49,780 bases of DNA, taken from IMG/VR virus record IMGVR_UViG_3300018429_000005, positions 1 to 49,780 of that record; one strand, given 5' to 3'. The translations under genes were made by a program, and so were the position numbers. The notes below the pieces were generated by a model, which saw nothing but the letters and a program-made list of their open reading frames with translations, did not search any database and was not told the DNA's origin. Source of the DNA: a virus. Positions 22,462 through 42,043 of the stretch are shown piece after piece; the first letter of the stretch is position 1; each line of letters begins with the position of its first letter.

Positions 22462-24656
22462 TGGCCGTCGTCAATCCCGTCGTCGAGAACCGGCAGGAGC
22501 TTCGCCCGATGCCGGGGCAGCGGGCGCAGGCCGCAGAGTTTGACCTCGGCCAGACGGTCGGGCGCGCGGTCGCGGAACTTGGCCGGACGGGGCAGGATTT
22601 CGCCGAGCAGCAGAATGAGCTGAACATCCGCTACGCCCAGACCGCGGCGCAGCGGGCGCGCAGCGAGGCGCTGAGGCGTGTCGGCGAGATCAGGAGCCGT
22701 GTCGGACAGGCGCAACTTCTCGACGCAGAGACCGCGCGGCAGCAGGCCGAGGGCGAAATCCAGAGCGTGCGTGAGGATATCGGCGAGAGTTTGCAGGATC
22801 CGCTCGCCCGGCGCATGTTCCAGGACAGCTTCGAGACGGCGGTGGCGAACGACCGGCTGCGGATGCGCGAGCATTCGGACCAGCAGCTCAGGCTCGCCGA
22901 GAACGCCGAGGCCGAGGCGACGATCGATCTTTCGACCGAGCGCGCGGTCGATATGCGCGGTAATGCGGAAGCGGTACAGGCAGAGCGCGCGACGATCGAG
23001 ACCAACGTGCGCAGGCGGCTGCGCGGTGCGCCGGAGGCGGCAATTGAGATCGCGACGCGCACGGCAATCTCGAACATGCACCGGCAGACGGCGCTGGCGA
23101 TCCTCGGCGCCGACGAAGCGGGTGGCGGGCTCGAGGCCATGGCCTACGTCCGCGAGCATGCCGCCGAGATCGTGGCGGAGCAGGAGCTTCTGCTCTTCAA
23201 CGCGATCCAGCCGCAATACGATAACGACGTCGTCGAAGGCGTGGTTGGCGAGATCGAGGCGGCGGTGCGCGGGGGCGAAGGCGCGGAACCCGCGCCACCG
23301 GCGGAAGACCGGCCGCACAGCGTCTCCGGCACGCAATACGATCCGACGCGAGGCGTCGGGCGAGTCACCGACGGCAGCGCTGCGCACCGGCGTCGGTCGG
23401 GGCGACAGGCGGTCGACTATGCCGCGCCCGCAGGCACGCCGATCTATCCGCCGGTCGCGGGCGTCGTCGCCTCGGCGCCGCGCCAGCAGCAGGGCAATAA
23501 CGGCTATATGGTGCGGATCAGGCATCCGAACGGCCATGTGACGACCTACCTCCACCTGCGCGGGCCGAGCCCGCTGCGCGAAGGGCAGGAGGTGACGACC
23601 GGCACGGTGATCGGCACGGTCGGCTCGACCGGGCGCTCGACCGGAAACCACGTCGATTTCTCGGTGCGAGACGCACAGGGGCGGGCGCTCAATCCGGAGC
23701 AGGTCACATGGACCGGCGACGATCTTCCAGCGTACGAGCCACAGCGCAACGACCTGGCCGCGCAATATCGGGTCGCGCGTCGCGTGGCGACGACGCGAGG
23801 GCTCAACTCGCGTCAATATGCGGCGGTGTTGCAGCGCATCGACCAGCGCGCCGCGCGCGAGGAGAATCTGGTTCGCCGCGCGCAGGACGAAGTCGATCGC
23901 CAGATCATGATTCGGCTCGCCCAGCTTGACGACAATCTGACCGACATTTCGCAAATCCCAAGCTTCGGCAACGCCAGTCCGAACCTGCAACTCCAGATCA
24001 GGAACATGATTCGCGAGAATACGCGGGCGAGCGAGCCGCAGGCATGGAATGAAGCAGAGTTGGATGTCGACGATTTGGCCTACGGTACGCCGGAGGAGCA
24101 GCAGATTTTTCTCAATACCAATGTGCGGGCGCTGCCAATTCGTCGAGAAGCACAAGGACGGCTTCAACGTCAACAAAATGCGATTCGACGAGAGATGCGG
24201 AATGACGTCAGCGAGAGCAATGTCGCCGTGCAGCTCGGACGGGTCGAGAGCGCCATGCGGCGCGCGATCGGCGATCCGGACAGCGGCGCCGATATTCGAA
24301 CAGGGCGACGTGCTCGCGATGTGGATCGTCGTCGGTTCTCGCAGCTTCGCGAGTCGGTCAGCCGCGTCGTCGAGCGCGAGCAGCGCAGGCTCGGGCGCGA
24401 CCTGACCGACGTCGAGATGGACGGTGCGGTACGCTCTGAGCTGCTGCGCGTGAACGTCCATCGTAACGGCAGGACGACGGAAGCGCCCGCCTACGAGGCA
24501 CGGGAGGCGCGTGAGCAGGGCGCGCGAGTGACGATCACTGTGCCGATTGAGGCCGAACGGCGTATTCGCGAGGAGCTGGCGCGTCGCGGCGTTCCGAACC
24601 CGACACCTGACAGGATCACGTTCGAATATCGTCGTTCGTTGATTTACGCACGCTGA
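22461..24656 (+). CDS. Internal virion protein with degenerate M23 peptidase domain (731 aa)
   Basis: Long helical, Gln/Arg/Glu-rich flanks (1-280 and 410-731) surround a LytM/M23-like beta domain at about 290-405: VDYAAPAGTPIYPPVAGVVA, NGYMVRIRHPNGHVTTYLHL and TGRSTGNHVDFSVRD. In active M23 enzymes the motifs are HxxxD and HxH. Here the first His is Arg 315 (RQAVD, D319), and the last motif is H397-V-D399. It probably enters the periplasm during ejection; the domain may bind peptidoglycan without cutting it. Confidence 0.8.
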   Translation: MAVVNPVVENRQELRPMPGQRAQAAEFDLGQTVGRAVAELGRTGQDFAEQQNELNIRYAQTAAQRARSEALRRVGEIRSRVGQAQLLDAETARQQAEGEIQSVREDIGESLQDPLARRMFQDSFETAVANDRLRMREHSDQQLRLAENAEAEATIDLSTERAVDMRGNAEAVQAERATIETNVRRRLRGAPEAAIEIATRTAISNMHRQTALAILGADEAGGGLEAMAYVREHAAEIVAEQELLLFNAIQPQYDNDVVEGVVGEIEAAVRGGEGAEPAPPAEDRPHSVSGTQYDPTRGVGRVTDGSAAHRRRSGRQAVDYAAPAGTPIYPPVAGVVASAPRQQQGNNGYMVRIRHPNGHVTTYLHLRGPSPLREGQEVTTGTVIGTVGSTGRSTGNHVDFSVRDAQGRALNPEQVTWTGDDLPAYEPQRNDLAAQYRVARRVATTRGLNSRQYAAVLQRIDQRAAREENLVRRAQDEVDRQIMIRLAQLDDNLTDISQIPSFGNASPNLQLQIRNMIRENTRASEPQAWNEAELDVDDLAYGTPEEQQIFLNTNVRALPIRREAQGRLQRQQNAIRREMRNDVSESNVAVQLGRVESAMRRAIGDPDSGADIRTGRRARDVDRRRFSQLRESVSRVVEREQRRLGRDLTDVEMDGAVRSELLRVNVHRNGRTTEAPAYEAREAREQGARVTITVPIEAERRIREELARRGVPNPTPDRITFEYRRSLIYAR

Positions 24657-27600
24657 TGCAGGACGACATCTACTCCCGCATGTTCGAGGACAGCGACCGG
24701 GCGCAGGCGCGAATGAACGCGTTGCAGACCAGGCGGCCCGAGGATGTGGCGCGTGGGCTCAGGCTGTCGAAGATTACAGGCATCCCGGCGCCGGTCGCCG
24801 AAGCCGAGCCGGAGGTCGTCGAGACGCAGGCACGGCGCCAGCAGGTCGAGGCCGTCACCGCGCTCGATCTGCAGCTCGCGCGCTGGCTGAGTTCGCCCGA
24901 CAATGGGGCGCTGGCGCGCAACGACCTGCACCGTCTCTCGGCGGTCGGCAGCCTGCTCGATCCATGGACATCCGCCGAGCGGGCCGACTTCTCGCGGCGG
25001 ATTGGCACGCGTCCAGTCGACACGCAGGCTGATGTCGGCGCGGCTTTGGGAACGCGCTCTGCGCAGCCGGATCTGCTTTCAGGCAGGCCGTCTACGGAAC
25101 CACTCGCGCAGATCGCCGCGCGGATCAGGGCGCGCATCGTCGGGGAGGAATGGGCTGAGCGGCGAAAACAGGCAGGGGAAGGCCGCGAAACGCGGTTCGC
25201 GCGGGCCTATCTCGGCATGTTGGGGACAGGGCTCAATTATGCGGCTGGTGGTCTTCTCGGCGGCGCGCAATATGCGATGGATGCGATCGGCCGAGGTGAG
25301 GAAACTGCGGACTATTTCAGGCGTGAGCGCGAAACGCTCGACGAGTTCCAGGCGCGCATAACGCCGCGCAACATGAACACGTTCGGCCGCGGCATCTTCT
25401 CGGCGGGCGGCAGCCTGGCTTCGCTTGGCCTCGCCTTCGTGGCAGGGCCTGAAGCGGTGCTTCCGCTTCTCGCCGGCGGAAGCGGGCTCGACGCCTATTC
25501 GAGGTTCCGCGCGCGCGGCGCCACGCCCAATCAGGCGCTGGCAGGAGGCACCGCGACCGGTGCGATCGAATATGTGACCGAGCGCATTCCGATCGGCTGG
25601 CTCACCGGTCGTTTCGGCCGGCAGGGCGCTCGCGATTTTCTCACGCACTTCATCGGCGCGGAGCTGGTCGGCGAGCAGCTTGCCACGCACACGCAGGATC
25701 TGGTCGACGTGCTGGTGCCCGGCGGGATGAGCTGGGAAGAATACGCTGCGACGCGCGGGCAGGCAGCGGCGGAAACGGCGATTGCCACGGCCGCGATGAC
25801 GGGCGTGATCGGCGGCGCGCACGGCATCGCGCTGAGGCTGCGACAGCAGGATGAGGCGCTCGACGAAATGGTCGCGGGCGCGATGGGCGAGGATTTTCTC
25901 GACAGGTTGATGGAAGAGGCAGGACAAAGCCAGGTTCGCCAGCTCGATCCCGACAGCTTCAGCGCCTTCGTCAATGAGCGTGCCGACGGCACGCCGGTCC
26001 AGAACCTTTACATCCCGGCTGAGGCGGTCCGCACCTATTTGCAGAGCGAAGGCGCCGAGACGGAATTCTTCGAGCCTTATGTCGAGGAGCTTGTCGAGGC
26101 GGTCCGGTTGCAGGGCGATCTCGTGGTGCCGCTCGGCGAGGCGGCGGCCGGGCTCGCTGGCACGCAGGCATGGGCGGCGCTGCGCGAGGACGTGCGCGTG
26201 TCGCCGGGCGGCATGTCGGGCCGGGAAGCGCGCGAGCGGGCGAGGACGTTCTTCCAGGAGTTGGAGGGCCGCGGCGCCGAGATCGCGAAAGAGGCCGAGA
26301 GCATCGGCGAGGCGATGAAGCCGGCGGTCGAGGTCTATCAGCAAACGCGACAGGCGCTGTTGAAAATCGGACGAACCGAGCAGGAAGCCGACGCCATCGC
26401 TCAGATCGTCGCGGCGCGGCGCGAGACCGCCGGCGCGCGGCTGGGCGTTTCAGCGATGGACTACCACATCGCCAATCCAATTACGTTCAGAAAGGCGGCT
26501 CGGGGTGAATATTCTGACGAAGTGAAGACAACATTAATTGACGAGCCTCGATCAAATGAATTGATACCAATTCCAGCCGAAACAGAAGATGTGGTTTTAC
26601 CATTGGGGCACATTCCTGTTTTTGGCCCGGAGTGGGTTGCTGAACTAGATGAAATCGGGAAGAGACTCGGAGTACCCAAAGAAAGTGGTGAAACAAGTTT
26701 TAGATATGCTGCGCGCTTGATGAAAGCGTCTAAGCAAATTAATACTCCAGAAATAAAAATGCTTTCTGATCTTACTTTAAAACAGGAAGGTAAAAAAAAG
26801 GCAAGAGGACAAACTCAATTCTATGTTGAACACCCGGGTGCAATCATTACTTTGTTCGGTAGCGCCAACCATTCAACCCTGGTCCACGAGCTCGGGCATG
26901 TCTTTCTCGAGGAGATGTTCAGGGACGCGGCGAGCGCCAACGCGCCGGACGTGCTGAAGGAGGACGTCGCCAGAATAGAGAAGTGGTTTGCCGACAACGG
27001 CCAGCCGGTGACGAAGGGTAAAATCCCGACGGCCGCGCACGAATTGTTCGCGCGAGGCTATGAGCGCTACACGATGGAAGGCAGGGCGCCGAGCGCCGAA
27101 CTGCGCAACGTCTTCAGGCAGTTCGCGAAGTGGCTCAAGGATATCTATAACACGGTGCGCGCGTTGAAAGCGCCGATCACGCCGGAAATCCGGCAGGTGT
27201 TCGACCGGATGCTGGCGACCGACGCGGCGATCGAGGCGAGCCGCTCGACCGAGGCACATTTCACCGACCGCGCGCAGGTCCGGATGACCGATGCCGAGTG
27301 GGAAGCGTATCAGCGCTCGATCGACGATGCGAAAAACGTCGCGCATGACGAGCTTCTCGCGAAGACGATGGCGGCGATCCGCCGACGCGAGACCCAGCGC
27401 GGGCGGGAGGAGCGCGCGAACGTGCGCGGCGAGGTCGAGGCCAGGATCGACGCGCGGCCGGAGTTCGTCGCTTTGCACCTGCTCCGCACCGGCAAGCGCG
27501 TCGCCGATCCAGAGGGCGAGCGGGTCGACGTCAAGTTCAATACCGGTTGGCTGATCGATACGTACGGCGAGGATGTGCTGGATCGCCTGCCGCGCGGACT

Positions 27601-30600
27601 GCCGATCATCAAGGGCGATGGCGTCACCGGCGATGTCGTCGCCGAGATGACCGGCTTTCCGTCCGGAGATACGCTGGTCAAGGCGCTGCTTATGCTGCGC
27701 GAGGCCAAGGACGCGATGAAGGCTGAAGGCGAACTGCGCAGTGTGCGTGAGGTGATGGTCGAGGCCGAGGTCGACCGGATCATGGCCGGGCGCCACGGCG
27801 ACACGCTGACCGACGGCTCCATCGAGGAAGAGGCCATCGCCGCGATCAACTCGAACCGGCAGGGTGAAATTCTCTCGGGCGAGCTGCGCCAACTTCGCAG
27901 GCTGACGCCGCAGGCTGGAGGCCCTACGCCCTACCGGATCGCGCGGGAGTGGGCGCGGCGCACGATCAACGCCGGCCGGGTCGCCGACGTCGCCAGCCGC
28001 GCTCAAATCCAGCGTTACCTGCGCGCGACCAACAAGGCAGCGCGGGCGTTCGAGGAAGCATTGCTCGCCGAGAAGCATGATGAGGCGTTCAGGCAGAAGC
28101 AGGCGCAGCTCCTGAACCATGCTCTGCTCGCCGAAGCCAAGATCGCGGCGGATCAGGTCGACCGGATCGTGGGGAGGATGCAGCGCTACGCCAAGCGCAA
28201 GGCGATGGGCTCGGTCGACCAGGATTATTTCGACCGGATCCACGAACTGCTCGAACGATTCGATTTCCGGACGCGCTCGCAAAAGTCGATCGACGAGCAG
28301 GACAGCTTCGAGAAATGGGCCGTCCGGCGCCAGGCCGAGGGGTTCGAGGTGCTGGTGCCGCCGCGTCTTGTCGACCGCGGCGAGCATTACAGCCGGGTCG
28401 ACGTCGATACCCTGCTCGAACTGGATGACGCCGTCTCCTCGCTGGTCGCGCTCGGCCGGGTCAAGCAGAATATGAAGGACGGCAAAGAGGAGCGCGATTT
28501 CAACGAGTGGCGCGATCTCGCGGTCGCCAACATCCGCTCGCTGCCGGAACGCAGGCTCGGCGACAACCCGTCGGACGACAAGGAACGCGCGCTGGTCGCG
28601 CTCGGCGTCGGCGGGCTCAAGATCGAGGAGATCGCCGACGAACTCGATCTCGACGATCCGAACGGCCCGTTCAACAACCTGCTCGTCAAGCGCGCGACCG
28701 AGAACGCCAACACGCGTGACGCGCTCAAGGCCGAGATCCTCGAACCGATCGCGCAGATTTATTTCAGCCTGCCGCCGGAGATGCGGCGCTGGCTGGCGGA
28801 GAAGGCGACCAGCTCGCTGACATGGAACGTGGTCAACGAATTGGACACGCCGGAGGACTCGCCGATTTGGGGGCGTCGAGGCAAGCCGGTGACGATGACC
28901 CGTATGGAGTGGATCGCGGTTGCACTCAATACCGGCAATATCTCCAGCCTGGAGAAAATGACGAAGGGCGAGCGCTGGCCAGCGCCGGTCGTCCAGTCCG
29001 AGCTGGTCCGAATCCTTAATCGCAAAGAGGCGTGGGACTTCGCACAGGCGCTGTGGGACCAGGCCGCGAAGCTCTGGCCGCACACGGTCGAGGGCGAACG
29101 TCAGATGTCGGGCGTCGTTCCGGAAGCGGTCGAGGCGCTGGAAATCGAGATTCCGTTCGGCACCTACAAGGGCGGCTACTGGCCGGCCGTCTACGATGTC
29201 GACCGTTCGCAACGTGCCGCGAACAACGAGGCCGACGCCGCCAATGACCTGTTCGGCTACAAGTCCGGCATCGGCACGCCCAAGGGCCACACCATCGCGC
29301 GCACCAACGCGATCGGTCCGATGAGCTACAGGCTGGAGGAAATCCTGTTCACTCATGTCGACCGGGTGACGACGCGGATCGCTTATGCCGCATGGGCGCG
29401 CGACGTGCTGAGGGCGATCGACAACCAGACCGTCGCGGGCGCGATCAAGACGCGGCTGGGGCCGGAATATCTCGCGCAGGTCAAGCCGTGGCTGCGCCGG
29501 CAGATCAACGGCAACATCATCGATAAGCGCGGCTCGGCGGCGATCGATCGCTGGATGCGCGGTTTCAGGGTCAACATGTCCATCGCGGTGATGGGCCTTT
29601 CCTACTCGACGATGCAGGCGCAGGCGCTCGGCCTCGGCCAGTCGATGAGCCGGATCGGTCCCAAATGGGTTGGTTTCGGACTGCTGGAACTGGTCAGGAA
29701 TCCGAAGGGGATGCAGGATTTCGTCTACCAGCGCAGCCCGGAAATGCAGCGCCGGGGGCGCGAGGTCAATCGCGAGATGGTCGAGTTCTTCAAGACGCTC
29801 AACCTCGAACGCGGCAAGGCTGGAAAGGCGAAGCGCTGGTACAGGAACGCGCAGGCGGCGGCGTTCTGGCATATCGCGTGGATGGACCGTTGGTCGGTGG
29901 CGCTGCCGACCTGGCTCGGCGCCTATCACAAGGGGCTGGGCGAGGACATGACCGACGAGGAGGCGTCGGCTTATGGCGACAAGATGGTGAGGCAGTCGCA
30001 GGGTTCCGGCCGGGAGAAGGATTTGTCGGCGTGGCAGTCGCCGAACAACGAGACGCAGCGCTTCTGGACGATGTTCTACACGCCGTTCAACGTCATGCTC
30101 AACATGCAGTGGAAGAGCGTGCGACTGGCGAAGCGGGGAAATTGGCGCGGGGCGATCCAGATGCAGGTCTGGATGATGCTCGCCATCGCGCTCGGCGACG
30201 CGTTGCAGAATGGCGACTGGCCGGAGGATGAGGAAGGCGAGACGACGCTGGAAAGCATCGCGCTCTGGTTCAGTCGCAATATGTTCTTTGCGCTGTGGCA
30301 GGGCGTGCCGGTCGCGCGCGACGCGGCCAGCGTCACCGAACGCCACCTGATCGGCCAATATGCCGAGATGCAGACGCCGGTCGAGGCGCTCTACAACGCC
30401 GTGGACCGGGCAGTGCGCGAAGGGCGGCAGGTCGCCGAGGGCGAGGAGGACATCACCAGCGAGACGATCCGGGCCGAGAGCAGCGCGGTCGGCTATGTGT
30501 TCGGCCTGCCGGGCAACCAGATCGGCAAGACCGGCGGGTTCCTGTGGGACGTTCGGACTGGCGATGCGGACCCGGATGGTGTACGCGATTGGTGGAGCGG

Positions 30601-30634
30601 GGTGACTCGCGGACGGCTGCCTGAGGAGGAATGA
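24656..30634 (+). CDS. Giant ejection-type virion protein with HELGH motif (1992 aa)
   Basis: The longest gene follows the gp14-like and 731-aa genes, the order of T7 gp14-gp15-gp16. Hydrophobic Gly/Ala segments occur near 185-420 (LGMLGTGLNYAAGGLLGGAQ; VAGPEAVLPLLAGGSG), and a zinc-protease-like motif VHELGHVFLEEM at residues ~743-754. The C-terminal third includes membrane-active stretches (FRVNMSIAVMGLSYST; WMMLAIALGDALQNG). A very A+T-rich block (26475-26880) encodes residues ~607-741, just before HELGH, and differs sharply from the rest. The protein probably forms the trans-envelope channel and digests or modifies a host target; the protease activity is inferred from the motif. Confidence 0.85.
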   Translation: MQDDIYSRMFEDSDRAQARMNALQTRRPEDVARGLRLSKITGIPAPVAEAEPEVVETQARRQQVEAVTALDLQLARWLSSPDNGALARNDLHRLSAVGSLLDPWTSAERADFSRRIGTRPVDTQADVGAALGTRSAQPDLLSGRPSTEPLAQIAARIRARIVGEEWAERRKQAGEGRETRFARAYLGMLGTGLNYAAGGLLGGAQYAMDAIGRGEETADYFRRERETLDEFQARITPRNMNTFGRGIFSAGGSLASLGLAFVAGPEAVLPLLAGGSGLDAYSRFRARGATPNQALAGGTATGAIEYVTERIPIGWLTGRFGRQGARDFLTHFIGAELVGEQLATHTQDLVDVLVPGGMSWEEYAATRGQAAAETAIATAAMTGVIGGAHGIALRLRQQDEALDEMVAGAMGEDFLDRLMEEAGQSQVRQLDPDSFSAFVNERADGTPVQNLYIPAEAVRTYLQSEGAETEFFEPYVEELVEAVRLQGDLVVPLGEAAAGLAGTQAWAALREDVRVSPGGMSGREARERARTFFQELEGRGAEIAKEAESIGEAMKPAVEVYQQTRQALLKIGRTEQEADAIAQIVAARRETAGARLGVSAMDYHIANPITFRKAARGEYSDEVKTTLIDEPRSNELIPIPAETEDVVLPLGHIPVFGPEWVAELDEIGKRLGVPKESGETSFRYAARLMKASKQINTPEIKMLSDLTLKQEGKKKARGQTQFYVEHPGAIITLFGSANHSTLVHELGHVFLEEMFRDAASANAPDVLKEDVARIEKWFADNGQPVTKGKIPTAAHELFARGYERYTMEGRAPSAELRNVFRQFAKWLKDIYNTVRALKAPITPEIRQVFDRMLATDAAIEASRSTEAHFTDRAQVRMTDAEWEAYQRSIDDAKNVAHDELLAKTMAAIRRRETQRGREERANVRGEVEARIDARPEFVALHLLRTGKRVADPEGERVDVKFNTGWLIDTYGEDVLDRLPRGLPIIKGDGVTGDVVAEMTGFPSGDTLVKALLMLREAKDAMKAEGELRSVREVMVEAEVDRIMAGRHGDTLTDGSIEEEAIAAINSNRQGEILSGELRQLRRLTPQAGGPTPYRIAREWARRTINAGRVADVASRAQIQRYLRATNKAARAFEEALLAEKHDEAFRQKQAQLLNHALLAEAKIAADQVDRIVGRMQRYAKRKAMGSVDQDYFDRIHELLERFDFRTRSQKSIDEQDSFEKWAVRRQAEGFEVLVPPRLVDRGEHYSRVDVDTLLELDDAVSSLVALGRVKQNMKDGKEERDFNEWRDLAVANIRSLPERRLGDNPSDDKERALVALGVGGLKIEEIADELDLDDPNGPFNNLLVKRATENANTRDALKAEILEPIAQIYFSLPPEMRRWLAEKATSSLTWNVVNELDTPEDSPIWGRRGKPVTMTRMEWIAVALNTGNISSLEKMTKGERWPAPVVQSELVRILNRKEAWDFAQALWDQAAKLWPHTVEGERQMSGVVPEAVEALEIEIPFGTYKGGYWPAVYDVDRSQRAANNEADAANDLFGYKSGIGTPKGHTIARTNAIGPMSYRLEEILFTHVDRVTTRIAYAAWARDVLRAIDNQTVAGAIKTRLGPEYLAQVKPWLRRQINGNIIDKRGSAAIDRWMRGFRVNMSIAVMGLSYSTMQAQALGLGQSMSRIGPKWVGFGLLELVRNPKGMQDFVYQRSPEMQRRGREVNREMVEFFKTLNLERGKAGKAKRWYRNAQAAAFWHIAWMDRWSVALPTWLGAYHKGLGEDMTDEEASAYGDKMVRQSQGSGREKDLSAWQSPNNETQRFWTMFYTPFNVMLNMQWKSVRLAKRGNWRGAIQMQVWMMLAIALGDALQNGDWPEDEEGETTLESIALWFSRNMFFALWQGVPVARDAASVTERHLIGQYAEMQTPVEALYNAVDRAVREGRQVAEGEEDITSETIRAESSAVGYVFGLPGNQIGKTGGFLWDVRTGDADPDGVRDWWSGVTRGRLPEEE
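26475..26880 (+). other. A+T-rich cassette inside the ejection protein gene
   Basis: Codon use switches abruptly to A/T endings (for example gaaataaaaatgctttctg) and returns to G/C-rich use at the HELGH motif. The frame is preserved. This is the signature of a recently acquired domain exchanged by recombination. The encoded segment (EYSDEVKTTLIDEPRSNELI... QTQFYVEHPGAIITLFGSAN) was not recognised, except that its last strand is the usual lead-in to the HExGH protease fold. Confidence 0.8.
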
Positions 30635-38784: not shown

Positions 38785-40806
38785 TCATTCTCCTTTGCGA
38801 TAGCGATAACTCTCGAACCCACCAGCCGCGAGCGGCAGGCCCTTAGCCCATGGCGGATTCGCCGCGAGCAGGGCGTTCAGACCTTCGACCGAATAAACGG
38901 GATCGTCGGGCGGTTCGGTGATGAACTCGTCGTGGACGGTGAGCAGCGGCCGGTAGCCTGCTTCCTCGATCTTCGGCCACGCCTCGGCCATGATCTCGCG
39001 GGCCGTCGATTGCGTCGCGTCGGCGGCGAGCTTCCCGCCGAACGTGTATATGCGCTCCCAGCGCTTCGTGTAGTTGTTGATCCCCATGAACGAGACGGAG
39101 CGACTGCCGGGGCGTCGCGGGTCTTCGACGATGGCCGGCGCCGCATAGCTAAGGAAGCCGCCAGACGGCAGCTCCATCTTGAGCCACTCGCGCCAGCGCT
39201 CGAACCGGATATGCTCACCCGCCGAGAACGTCCGCTCTGGCGCCATGATCGCCTGCCGCGCGGCGTCGTCGAGCTGCTTCCAGAAGCCGGTGTCCCAATC
39301 GGCGATCTTCGGATGGATCGAGCGCCACAGCCTGACCAGATCCATCGCCTCGTCTTCATCGATAATGTAGTTGAACAGCAAGGCGACCGCGAACAGCGCG
39401 GCTTTCGATCCACCGTAGGAACAGGCATATTCGGGGTGCTTCCCGTGCGATTGTCGTTCGGCGTCACTGACTTGATCGGGCCGCTTGTGCAGCATTCTGG
39501 CAGCAGTCTGTCGATGCACGTCCTCTCCGATGCCCGCATCATAGTCGCGAAACGATTGCAGCTTCCACTCTTCACCAGCGAGCCAGGCGATCACCCTCGC
39601 CTCGATTCCCTGAAGGTCGCTGACGACCAGCTTCTTCCCCTTATCGGCGACGATGAACCCGCGCAGCGCGTTCGAGGCGAGCTTGATCGGATTGTCGTAG
39701 AGCAGATGCGCGCCGCGCGCCTTCATCGCCTCGATGCCGATCTCGATATCCCATGCCTCCATGTCCGGCCGCGGCAGGTTCTGGAGCTGGACGACACGAC
39801 CGGCCCAGCGCTTGGTACGCGCAGCACCGGAAAATTGCAGCATCCCGCGTAACCGGCCGTCGCTAGACACCGCTTTCAACAGCTTGTTGTACTTGCTGTT
39901 CGACGTCGTCGAGGTCTGCAAGCGCATCGCCAGCAGCTCTTTCACCATCCACGGGAGCTGCGGATCCTCGATCCGGCGCTCGAGCGTCGTCGCCTGCATG
40001 TCGGGCAGTTCGACATCATGCTGCTCGAGCACATATTTGAGCAGCTTGTCGCGCTGGGTCGTCGAGCGCAGCGCCTCGCCGGTCAGCTCGGCGGTGCGCT
40101 TGTCCATGCCCTTCTTCGTGACGTTCACCGTGTCGATCGCCGCGCGCGCCAGGTCGAGATCGACCTTGACGCCGCGATCGTTGGCCTTCTGATCAAGGCA
40201 CCAGAGCGCATGTTCGCGCGGCGCCGGATAGTTCCAGCGCGGCAGCTTTTTATAGATTTCGCGCATCGAGACAACGTCCGACGGCGCATATTCCTCGACG
40301 AAAATCTCCCACTCGACCGGATGCGTGTGCTTGGTCGCGCGCCTGATCTTCGAATTGGCCGGGCGCGGTTTGCAGAAGAGCTGGACGAGCTGCTTTCCCC
40401 TCTTATCCTTAGCCTTGTCGACCGGCAGCTTGAAAATCTCGCAAAGCCTGTCGAGACCGCCCGGCAGGCCGTGGCTCAATGCTTGGACCATCGTGTCATG
40501 GATGCGCTCGGGCAGGATGATCAGCGGCACCCTGCGGCCATTGATCCGGATCCCGGCGTGGCGCGCGACAGTGCGGTCGAAGAAACTGTTCTGAATGACG
40601 ATGATGTCGGCATGCTGGAACATCCAGACCAGCTCGTCGGGCGCATCGCCGCCGTCGGTCGCGTCCCACACCTCGACCGGCCCGTCGCCGATCGCCCATT
40701 GGTGAAGCATAATCTCAGCGTCTTCGGCATAAGCAGCAGTGCCGTTGCGAAGCGGAGTTTCGCAGTAGGTTTCCGTGTCCCAATAACCGATGATCGGATC
40801 AGGCAT
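38785..40806 (-). CDS. Family A DNA polymerase (673 aa)
   Basis: The 3'-5' exonuclease motif I is D10-T-E12 (YWDTETY). The polymerase palm motif A is VVSDLQGIEARVIAWLAG with D397 (DxxxIExR type), and motif C is VHDE at residues 624-627. The fingers motif is near HPEYACSYGGSKAALF, with the usual K and Y replaced by phage-type residues. It is the replicative polymerase of this phage. The stop overlaps the P-loop gene's first ATG. Confidence 0.93.
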   Translation of the reverse strand: MPDPIIGYWDTETYCETPLRNGTAAYAEDAEIMLHQWAIGDGPVEVWDATDGGDAPDELVWMFQHADIIVIQNSFFDRTVARHAGIRINGRRVPLIILPERIHDTMVQALSHGLPGGLDRLCEIFKLPVDKAKDKRGKQLVQLFCKPRPANSKIRRATKHTHPVEWEIFVEEYAPSDVVSMREIYKKLPRWNYPAPREHALWCLDQKANDRGVKVDLDLARAAIDTVNVTKKGMDKRTAELTGEALRSTTQRDKLLKYVLEQHDVELPDMQATTLERRIEDPQLPWMVKELLAMRLQTSTTSNSKYNKLLKAVSSDGRLRGMLQFSGAARTKRWAGRVVQLQNLPRPDMEAWDIEIGIEAMKARGAHLLYDNPIKLASNALRGFIVADKGKKLVVSDLQGIEARVIAWLAGEEWKLQSFRDYDAGIGEDVHRQTAARMLHKRPDQVSDAERQSHGKHPEYACSYGGSKAALFAVALLFNYIIDEDEAMDLVRLWRSIHPKIADWDTGFWKQLDDAARQAIMAPERTFSAGEHIRFERWREWLKMELPSGGFLSYAAPAIVEDPRRPGSRSVSFMGINNYTKRWERIYTFGGKLAADATQSTAREIMAEAWPKIEEAGYRPLLTVHDEFITEPPDDPVYSVEGLNALLAANPPWAKGLPLAAGGFESYRYRKGE

Positions 40807-41181: not shown

Positions 41182-41194
41182 GATCGCCGATCCT

Positions 41195-41361
41195 CCTCGG
41201 TCCTTGGTGGGATGCTGGACAAGCGCGTGAAGGGATCGAACCCGCACACCCGTCACTATCGGCCAACTAGATGCTCCCCGGCGTTGTCGGATCAAAGCAC
41301 CAGCAGTTCAAGATACCTGCCCTAACCTAGTGGCTTGCCAGCACCCCACAAAAGACCGAGG
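41195..41361 (-). ncRNA. Structured RNA candidate closed by a 28-bp helix
   Basis: Arms 41333-41361 and 41195-41224 are inverted copies (about 26 of 30 identical). On minus-strand RNA two of the differences become G-U pairs, leaving one mismatch and one bulge. The 108-nt interior holds GGGTTCGATCCC (41232-41243), a tRNA T-loop motif, and a D-loop-like TAGTTGGCC. The inner stem ends in ACCA. No anticodon arm or 7-bp acceptor fits, so it is not a normal tRNA. The left arm shares bases with the terminator at 41354-41377, and the right arm with the ribosome site of the next gene. Confidence 0.5.
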
Positions 41362-41377
41362 GCCGAAGCCCTCGGTC
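41354..41377 (-). terminator. Intrinsic terminator after the DUF2815 gene
   Basis: GACCGAGGGC-(loop)-GCCCTCGGTC is a perfect 10-bp stem with a 4-nt loop, followed on the minus strand by TTTTGTGG. It lies 13 nt after the stop of the DUF2815 gene. Its 3' strand can pair instead with 41195-41202, so the two structures exclude each other. Confidence 0.8.
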
Positions 41378-41389
41378 AGGCTGGGGAGG

Positions 41390-42043
41390 TCAGTCGGCAA
41401 GCATCCCCGCATCCTCGGGTTCGGCCGAGAGATCGGGAAAGCTGTTCGGATCGCTCGGTGGCTCGGCCGCGCTGAATGCATCGCCGTCGCGGCTGAACTG
41501 CACGCCGAGGAGATCGGTGCAAATACGCCGCTTCACATTCGTCTTGTTCAGCGCCCAGACGTCGATCTCGACATTGCCGTAGCAGCCTGCGTACGGCCGA
41601 CCATCGTCGACGACCAGCGGCGTCTTGTCGCAGTCGACCACGGTCGGCCGAGTCTCGTTACGCGCCGCCACGTAGACCATGCCTTCGAAGCCGTCGTAGA
41701 TGGTGCCGCTGCGGGTTGTCTTCTTGTTACCGATCCGAAGACCGGACTGATCCTCGGCGAATCCGTCGAGCTCGGCCTGCCAGGCCGGCTTCTCGCCGGT
41801 CGTGTTGCCGCGCGCATCGCTGGTCTTGACCGGCTTGACGCCGTAACGCTCCTTGGCGACCGCTTCGATCGCAGCGCGCACCTTCGCGGCGTTGGCGCCG
41901 TCGGGTCGAAAAACCGGATTGACCTCATATTTGTCCGGCGACTTCGAGCCGTCGGCATTCAGCATCCCTTCCCGCTTCCTGAACACGTGCACGAACGCGA
42001 GGCGTACGGGATCGCTCTGACTATCGGTCAACATCACTCTCAT
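41390..42043 (-). CDS. DUF2815 family protein, single-strand DNA-binding type (217 aa)
   Basis: LAFVHVFRKREGMLNADGSK, VNPVFRPDGANAAKVRAAIE, DGFEGMVYVAARNETRPTVV and YAGCYGNVEIDVWALNKTN match DUF2815, an OB-fold family related to T7 gp2.5-like proteins, with an acidic C-terminal tail (SDPNSFPDLSAEPEDAGMLAD in part). It should coat single-stranded DNA during replication, and it sits beside DUF2800 as usual. Confidence 0.9.
   Translation of the reverse strand: MRVMLTDSQSDPVRLAFVHVFRKREGMLNADGSKSPDKYEVNPVFRPDGANAAKVRAAIEAVAKERYGVKPVKTSDARGNTTGEKPAWQAELDGFAEDQSGLRIGNKKTTRSGTIYDGFEGMVYVAARNETRPTVVDCDKTPLVVDDGRPYAGCYGNVEIDVWALNKTNVKRRICTDLLGVQFSRDGDAFSAAEPPSDPNSFPDLSAEPEDAGMLAD

Follow-up and report, generated by a model that had tools for sequence, protein, structure and literature searches.

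Phages have been reported to carry Y RNAs, among which YrlA (RF02553) holds a tRNA-like T-loop inside a longer RNA. Kink-turns, in which a 3-base bulge and tandem G-A pairs lie between two helices, are common in riboswitches and also occur in C/D RNAs. GOLLD and ROOL are phage structured non-coding RNAs without known function that lie near tRNA genes; the accessible part of PMC12286853 places both near tRNA islands, with one GOLLD downstream of a Met-tRNA. The manA and wcaG RNAs of cyanophages are tied to recurrent gene classes in the accessible part of a survey of 104 candidate structured RNAs (PMC2864571).

Here we describe an RNA element from the window, meaning the whole 49,780-nt stretch of IMG/VR virus record IMGVR_UViG_3300018429_000005 that was analysed, and from 26 further virus records. 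Like GOLLD and ROOL it is a structured phage RNA without known function, and some members adjoin tRNA-Met, but those RNAs are several times larger and have other architectures. In most members it shares with YrlA a T-loop inside a longer RNA, and with the T-arm of tRNA and tmRNA a T-loop (UUCGAUC) on a stem running straight into the closing helix; unlike tRNA and tmRNA it has no anticodon arm or conserved CCA end, and it has extra nested helices and a T-arm of 9 positions. The sequence signature of a kink-turn, and that alone, is present in one internal loop (by our reading, NNNGA/GA in 9 of 21 distinct sequences and NNNGA/UA in 3 more), whereas the remaining 9 have other bulges and the element has no constant gene partner. 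As with manA and wcaG (PMC2864571), these are structured RNAs in phage genomes, in this case without an Rfam match. Phage RNAs of no known function are a known kind, and this one fits no known RNA family. The family is apparently undescribed, being absent from Rfam 15 and unannotated as RNA in the regions of three named genomes; no description of it was found in the literature covered, mostly that beyond subscription papers.

Using Rfam 15 at E values up to 10, no family, GOLLD and ROOL included, matched the element in six members (the window, L006, L161, L165, L190 and L210), and the only other match was a 16-bit SorX on the neighbouring terminator. ARAGORN and the Rfam tRNA and tmRNA models detected only neighbouring tRNAs, and a tRNA or tmRNA was rejected on this result and on the 3' CCA, which is not conserved. 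A Y RNA was likewise rejected: RF02553 gave nothing above cut-off in six records and nothing at the element, and a TROVE (Ro) protein was found in 0 of 15 records, which may be fragments and whose host may supply one (Deinobacterium control positive). Two YrlA hits of 35 and 24 bits at ~37.9 kb of Sulfitobacter phage vB_SupP_AX (AX; OQ722443.1, L150:1399-1723) are caused by a four-tRNA cluster. A retron ncRNA was rejected on finding reverse transcriptase in none of 15 records (controls positive in 3 genomes), and attC-like or transposon ends on the lack of a common sequence at the ends of the closing helix.

Inverted repeat and architecture of the element

The arms of the inverted repeat (41195-41218 and 41338-41361, 24 nt each) are 88% complementary without gaps, and 5 further pairs beyond a one-base bulge at T41219 bring the total to ~28, as in the long near-perfect repeat described by the first-pass annotation. 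The three copies of GACCGAGG that it listed, one of them inverted, were all located in the window (minus strand 41202-41195 and 41377-41370; inverted copy 41354-41361). It had also placed the arms on a terminator and on the GAGGAGG of a small gene; the terminator-like hairpin is indeed present (1 found, 0.4 expected), with a 3' arm that can alternatively lengthen the helix, and the GAGGAGG (41198-41192; gene start 41181) overlaps the other arm (Table 1). Elsewhere in the window, the gene for the ssDNA-binding protein (SSB) contains an 18-nt inverted repeat of 89% complementarity (41594-41611 and 41633-41650), and an open frame of 1992 aa among the virion genes (24656-30634) possibly encodes a very large internal virion protein.

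On comparative sequence evidence, the inverted repeat is the closing helix, P1, of a predicted ~135-nt structured RNA on the minus strand (41349-41207). From 5' to 3' it comprises P1, PA, hairpins P2 and P3, the second strand of PA, the T-arm and the second strand of P1, which abuts the T-arm without a gap. Model R1, whose seed includes the window, scores 126.9 bits on it (E 8e-25). Two-sided changes occur in all 12 modelled P1 pairs, with 90.5% of cells paired across 21 sequences; the uninterrupted run of P1 pairs varies among members between about 10 and more than 20, and with only ~11 in L006, L037 and L159, RNase III-type excision cannot be general. The P2 loop reads GUAUCNNUGAA in most type I members. 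The kink-turn-like internal loop of P3, UUUGA/GA, is formed by bases 41296-41292 and 41276-41275; the P3 inner stem is paired in 100% of cells, and its loop begins ACAAG in most members (7-base ACAAGNN), with AA in 21/21 and the next G in 20/21. The T-arm helix is paired in 94% of cells (21 sequences).

Table 1 Features of the element and its flanking genes in the window
Feature	Position	Strand	Remarks
Whole RNA element, P1 to P1'	41207..41349	-	Model match 41212-41344
P1, 5' strand	41333..41349	-	Inner GGC (AGC in the window) conserved, remaining sequence free
P1, 3' strand, with bulged base T41219	41207..41224	-	
PA helix, 5' strand, ACU-A-GGU	41325..41331	-	Pairs with 41263-41255
PA helix, 3' strand, GCC-GAU-AGU (AAC-AGU in many members)	41255..41263	-	
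P2 hairpin, loop GUAUCUUGAA	41302..41321	-	5/5 pairs with two-sided changes, 99% of cells paired
P3 hairpin	41270..41301	-	Outer stem, internal loop UUUGA/GA, inner stem UCCG/CGGG, 7-base loop ACAACGC
T-arm, hairpin of 9 positions with one mismatch	41225..41249	-	T-loop UUCGAUC (41240-41234)
Terminator-like hairpin of upstream gene	41354..41377	-	10 pairs, 4-base loop
GACCGAGGAGG, which may extend P1 and overlaps the downstream small gene's ribosome-binding site	41192..41202	-	
Upstream gene, ssDNA-binding protein (Enc34 type)	41390..42043	-	PF10991, E 5.5e-20
Downstream small Cys/His-rich gene, 60 aa	40999..41181	-	No Pfam match
Family A DNA polymerase gene, further downstream	38785..40806	-	PF00476, E 4.6e-17

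Within the interior, GGGTTCGATCCC was located at 41243-41232, and the T-loop motif recognised there earlier belongs to a real hairpin, with a consensus (UUYRAUY closed by G-C) that fits 15 of the 21 members and misses 6. The segment once likened to a D-loop is instead part of PA: GG 41327-41326 pairs with CC 41262-41261, and G-C is replaced by C-G and U-A (middle pair, second G, across 21 sequences: GC 15, CG 5, UA 1). The reported ACCA end is present at 41208-41205 but is not conserved, most members having other letters after P1; by inspection it occurs in the window and AX only, where it borders the AAGG of the ribosome-binding site (RBS).

The minus-strand RNA 41395-41170 folds with -104.4 kcal/mol (z -2.8; 1 of 200 shuffles equally good). 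Its energy is -103.5 kcal/mol with the terminator formed versus -101.7 kcal/mol with P1 extended through the terminator arm, and this difference of 1.8 kcal/mol makes a competition between terminator and P1 possible in the window phage, as modelled. The first-pass annotation had proposed a switch joining termination to translation; this is energetically possible, but the terminator folds first and an overlap of terminator or RBS with P1 was seen in the window and in none of the other members, so that the energies argue only weakly for a switch in the window. The element by itself has an ordinary folding energy (z -0.9; 37 of 200 shuffles as good), and proof therefore has to come from comparison.

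Family members and covariation

A blastn search of the region against 50,697 phage records returned one significant match, to AX (L006, a stretch of OQ722443.1; 73% identical, E 2e-10), which predates any model and lies in an unannotated gap of this N4-like phage, among quite different genes. Relatives of the window's SSB gene in viral contigs (L002-L004) carry the gene without the RNA, and were rejected as a source of it. A core motif derived from the window and AX matched 14 viral stretches, comprising 5 chance matches and 9 with the same layout (7 distinct: L007, L008, L009, L010, L012, L013 with its copies L018 and L019, and L020). The T-arm motif alone matched 13 stretches, all 13 of which show the remaining layout over ~110 bases beyond the motif. 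A wide motif pattern matched at least 120 stretches; among those flagged, L037 was the sole new member, L007 and L013 being known already. More scans and blastn added L209, L210, L190 (Xanthomonas phage vB_Xar_IVIA-DoCa5, ON932079.1) and L211 (MW202621.1, a siphovirus genome from Manatee Spring), the last a blastn find in neither model seed that scores 72.6 bits (E 2e-14). Taken together, these scans, blastn and the covariance models yielded 27 virus records with 21 distinct sequences, by our reading from roughly 15 lineages, and the RNA occurs once per record in 23 of the 23 records searched whole.

Other collections yielded no members. A polymerase-based locus search returned one distant locus and nothing useful, a plasmid collection gave one weak unrelated match only, and a motif scan of genome contigs gave 11 matches, all chance by eye and none recovered by R1. 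Searches of prokaryote genomes were weak negatives under strict filters, with R1 in 0 of 385 and R2 in 0 of 369, 0 of 296 and 0 of 390 (the first and last R2 groups share genomes, and between 8 and 11 candidates were scored for each genome listed); neither model had a positive control there.

In the model-guided alignment of the 21 sequences, standard pairs made up 91.7% of 809 paired cells (shuffled mean 67.0%; slid-partner controls 35-43%), 30 of 40 pairs had two-sided changes against a shuffled mean of 21.4, and 192 cells carried such changes against 60.1 (0 of 500 shuffles as good for each of the three); having been fitted to the model, this alignment leans towards structure. A MAFFT alignment of 12 sequences, made without a structure reference, gave 91.1% of 471 cells paired (slid controls 39-42%) and two-sided changes in 26 of 40 pairs (shuffled mean 17.4). 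Set A2 comprised 12 of the 23 records then known, leaving out duplicates (L018, L019, L162-L166) and the divergent L008, L009, L010 and L012; sets A3 and A4 comprised 20 of 26 and 21 of 27 records, with L018, L019 and L163-L166 omitted as identical or near-identical. The core, T-arm and type II loop motifs served to find members, and their conservation is therefore partly imposed; the pairing evidence lies mostly outside the motifs used.

P1 is free in sequence yet pairs in 21 distinct sequences; a conserved structure is supported, as is the long helix first proposed for the minus-strand RNA. At the level of aligned sequences, the comparison shows P1, PA, P2, P3, the T-arm and the loops to be conserved, on the minus strand and in one copy per record, in unrelated tailed phages. 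The folded strand is the window's minus strand, given that G-U cells outnumber A-C cells (48 versus 7 in the unfitted MAFFT alignment; 74 versus 22 in a fitted alignment of 20 sequences). A chance inverted repeat with a tRNA-like word and no function would accord with the ordinary folding energy of the element, but is contradicted by covariation, with 27 records in unrelated phages and compensatory changes, and can be virtually dismissed. It is also highly improbable that the element works as DNA, whether as a recombination, packaging or replication hairpin or as the end pair of a small mobile element. Many copies lie near replication or packaging genes and presence or absence is clean at one base-level site, but the excess of G-U over A-C pairs is relevant only to a one-strand RNA, P1 sequences are unrelated among members and hence provide no conserved terminal repeats, and the loops are more conserved than the stems.

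Type I members have a T-arm with a T-loop, and in type II (L008, L010, L012 and L190) and in L009 a different hairpin replaces the T-arm. A type II 5' half is joined to a type I T-arm in L210, and this hybrid makes the two types one family. P2 is apparently reduced in L209, and the outer P1 (~8 pairs) is strongly divergent between two related phages (L156:14-37 and the flanks of L157) while still mostly pairing.

Genomic context and the empty site

The RNA neighbours SSB and then PolA in the window, SSB in L210, and DNA primase with a Sak4-like ATPase in N4-like phages (L037 by PHROGs; L159, ATPase by PHROGs; L006/AX by annotation). It lies between GTP cyclohydrolase and TGT in L009 and beside terminase (TerL) and portal genes in L008 (PHROGs), a context that for L010 and L012 is judged only from translated starts like those of L008. 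A primosomal gene is present in L215 (region of L160), a primase-like gene in L213 (region of L161) and head genes in L214 (region of L157). tRNA-Met directly follows the RNA in L013 (copies L018 and L019) and directly precedes it in L190; tRNA-Asn, tRNA-Ser and ribonucleotide reductase are nearby in L007; and in L020 the RNA is antisense to the TerL-portal operon. Promoter scans at the family loci gave nothing useful, and the sequence ahead of the antisense copy in L020 showed no consensus promoter. These neighbourhoods show, on sequence comparison, a cassette sitting in many different intergenic places, and no same-strand downstream gene class is constant across the member loci compared, which argues against a riboswitch.

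The 'virion DNA-directed RNA polymerase' (WHM52961.1) of OQ722443.1 (62109-62843; L006:3146-3880) probably bears a wrong name; the corresponding genes of L037 and L159 fall in Sak4-like families of ssDNA annealing proteins, and its relatives go by the name N4 gp44. A hypothetical CDS annotated across the RNA in MW202621.1 (28374-28619; L211:2453-2698) is probably spurious or wrongly extended, and the tRNA-Met just before the RNA in ON932079.1 (L190:1656-1731) is missing from the record's features listed for that stretch. The minus strand of L009 (10465-14516) carries, one after another, GTP cyclohydrolase, the RNA, a TGT-like gene, a polymerase clamp and a DNA polymerase, an arrangement that may be a locus for 7-deazaguanine modification of DNA.

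In AX, 152 bases filled by the RNA separate the gp43-like primase and gp44-like ATPase genes, and in phages DS-1410Ws-06 and RD-1410Ws-07 (gp44 97.5% identical to AX) the same gap is 9 bases. The bases around the empty site, including the RBS for gp44, closely match AX in both phages. R1 found the RNA in none of nine whole records (these two and seven other N4-like phages, W03-W11), and five relatives of DoCa5 gave no convincing match, three weak 12-15-bit matches being taken as chance. The presence of the RNA in AX and the 9-base empty site in its sister phages indicate an accessory cassette that is acquired or lost whole.

These observations bear on a cis-acting regulator of the downstream gene, either riboswitch-like or a translational switch, which we consider unlikely. 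In its favour, the RNA lies directly ahead of an RBS in the window, L006, L159 and L009, an intrinsic terminator stands between the RNA and the next gene in L010 and L190, the two pairings in the window are close in energy, and kink-turn-like loops are common in riboswitches. The downstream gene is, however, not constant, L020 is antisense to its neighbours and L013, L018 and L019 lie just before tRNA-Met, the gp44 RBS in AX is the same as in its RNA-less relatives, and no shared expression platform was seen beside P1.

Proposed role

Based on the comparative sequence data, we suggest that the element is probably a stand-alone RNA gene of ~135 nt that is co-transcribed, released by P1 and active in trans on a host or phage protein to which it binds. 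The RNA would be co-transcribed with phage operons, or expressed from its own promoter in copies lying antisense; P1 would free it from the longer transcript, and the freed RNA may then act in trans as an accessory RNA on its host or phage protein partner. The properties of Y RNAs, kink-turns, T-loops and RNase III used in this argument are general knowledge.

That the protein target recognises the tRNA elbow or the translation machinery is a doubtful guess by analogy, made because most members carry the T-loop on a T-arm running into P1, and the stand-alone trans-acting reading is much firmer. A type I T-arm continuing into P1 would imitate half of a tRNA elbow; the T-loop consensus is missing in 6 of 21 sequences, and the tRNA-elbow idea therefore leaves part of the family unexplained. 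The patchy presence of the RNA would be in keeping with a role as a decoy or in counter-defence. By analogy, the element might be a new class of phage RNA, passed among unrelated phages as a ~140-base cassette, that uses its T-arm and kinked core to mimic the tRNA elbow and serves as a decoy blocking a tRNA-acting host protein, for instance a tRNA-targeting anti-phage nuclease, although we regard this as distinctly unlikely. A homo-oligomer or an RNA forming its own ribonucleoprotein in the manner of GOLLD and ROOL is quite improbable: the ecology is similar, a phage-borne structured RNA sometimes beside tRNA-Met (compare the accessible part of PMC12286853), but the element is much smaller, has no Rfam match to GOLLD or ROOL, and no palindromic loop was seen to be kept across the family.

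The intergenic gaps of phages are seldom examined for RNA. The trans-acting RNA proposed here is of a size that suits probing in vitro as well as structure determination, and the isolated phage vB_SupP_AX, which has the RNA, and its close relatives without it provide a natural with/without comparison. N4-like phages infecting marine bacteria, metagenomic phages and a siphovirus of Xanthomonas share a folded RNA that is cleanly present or absent as a cassette, a pattern that points to a function carried out by RNA and of use to phages of very different kinds.
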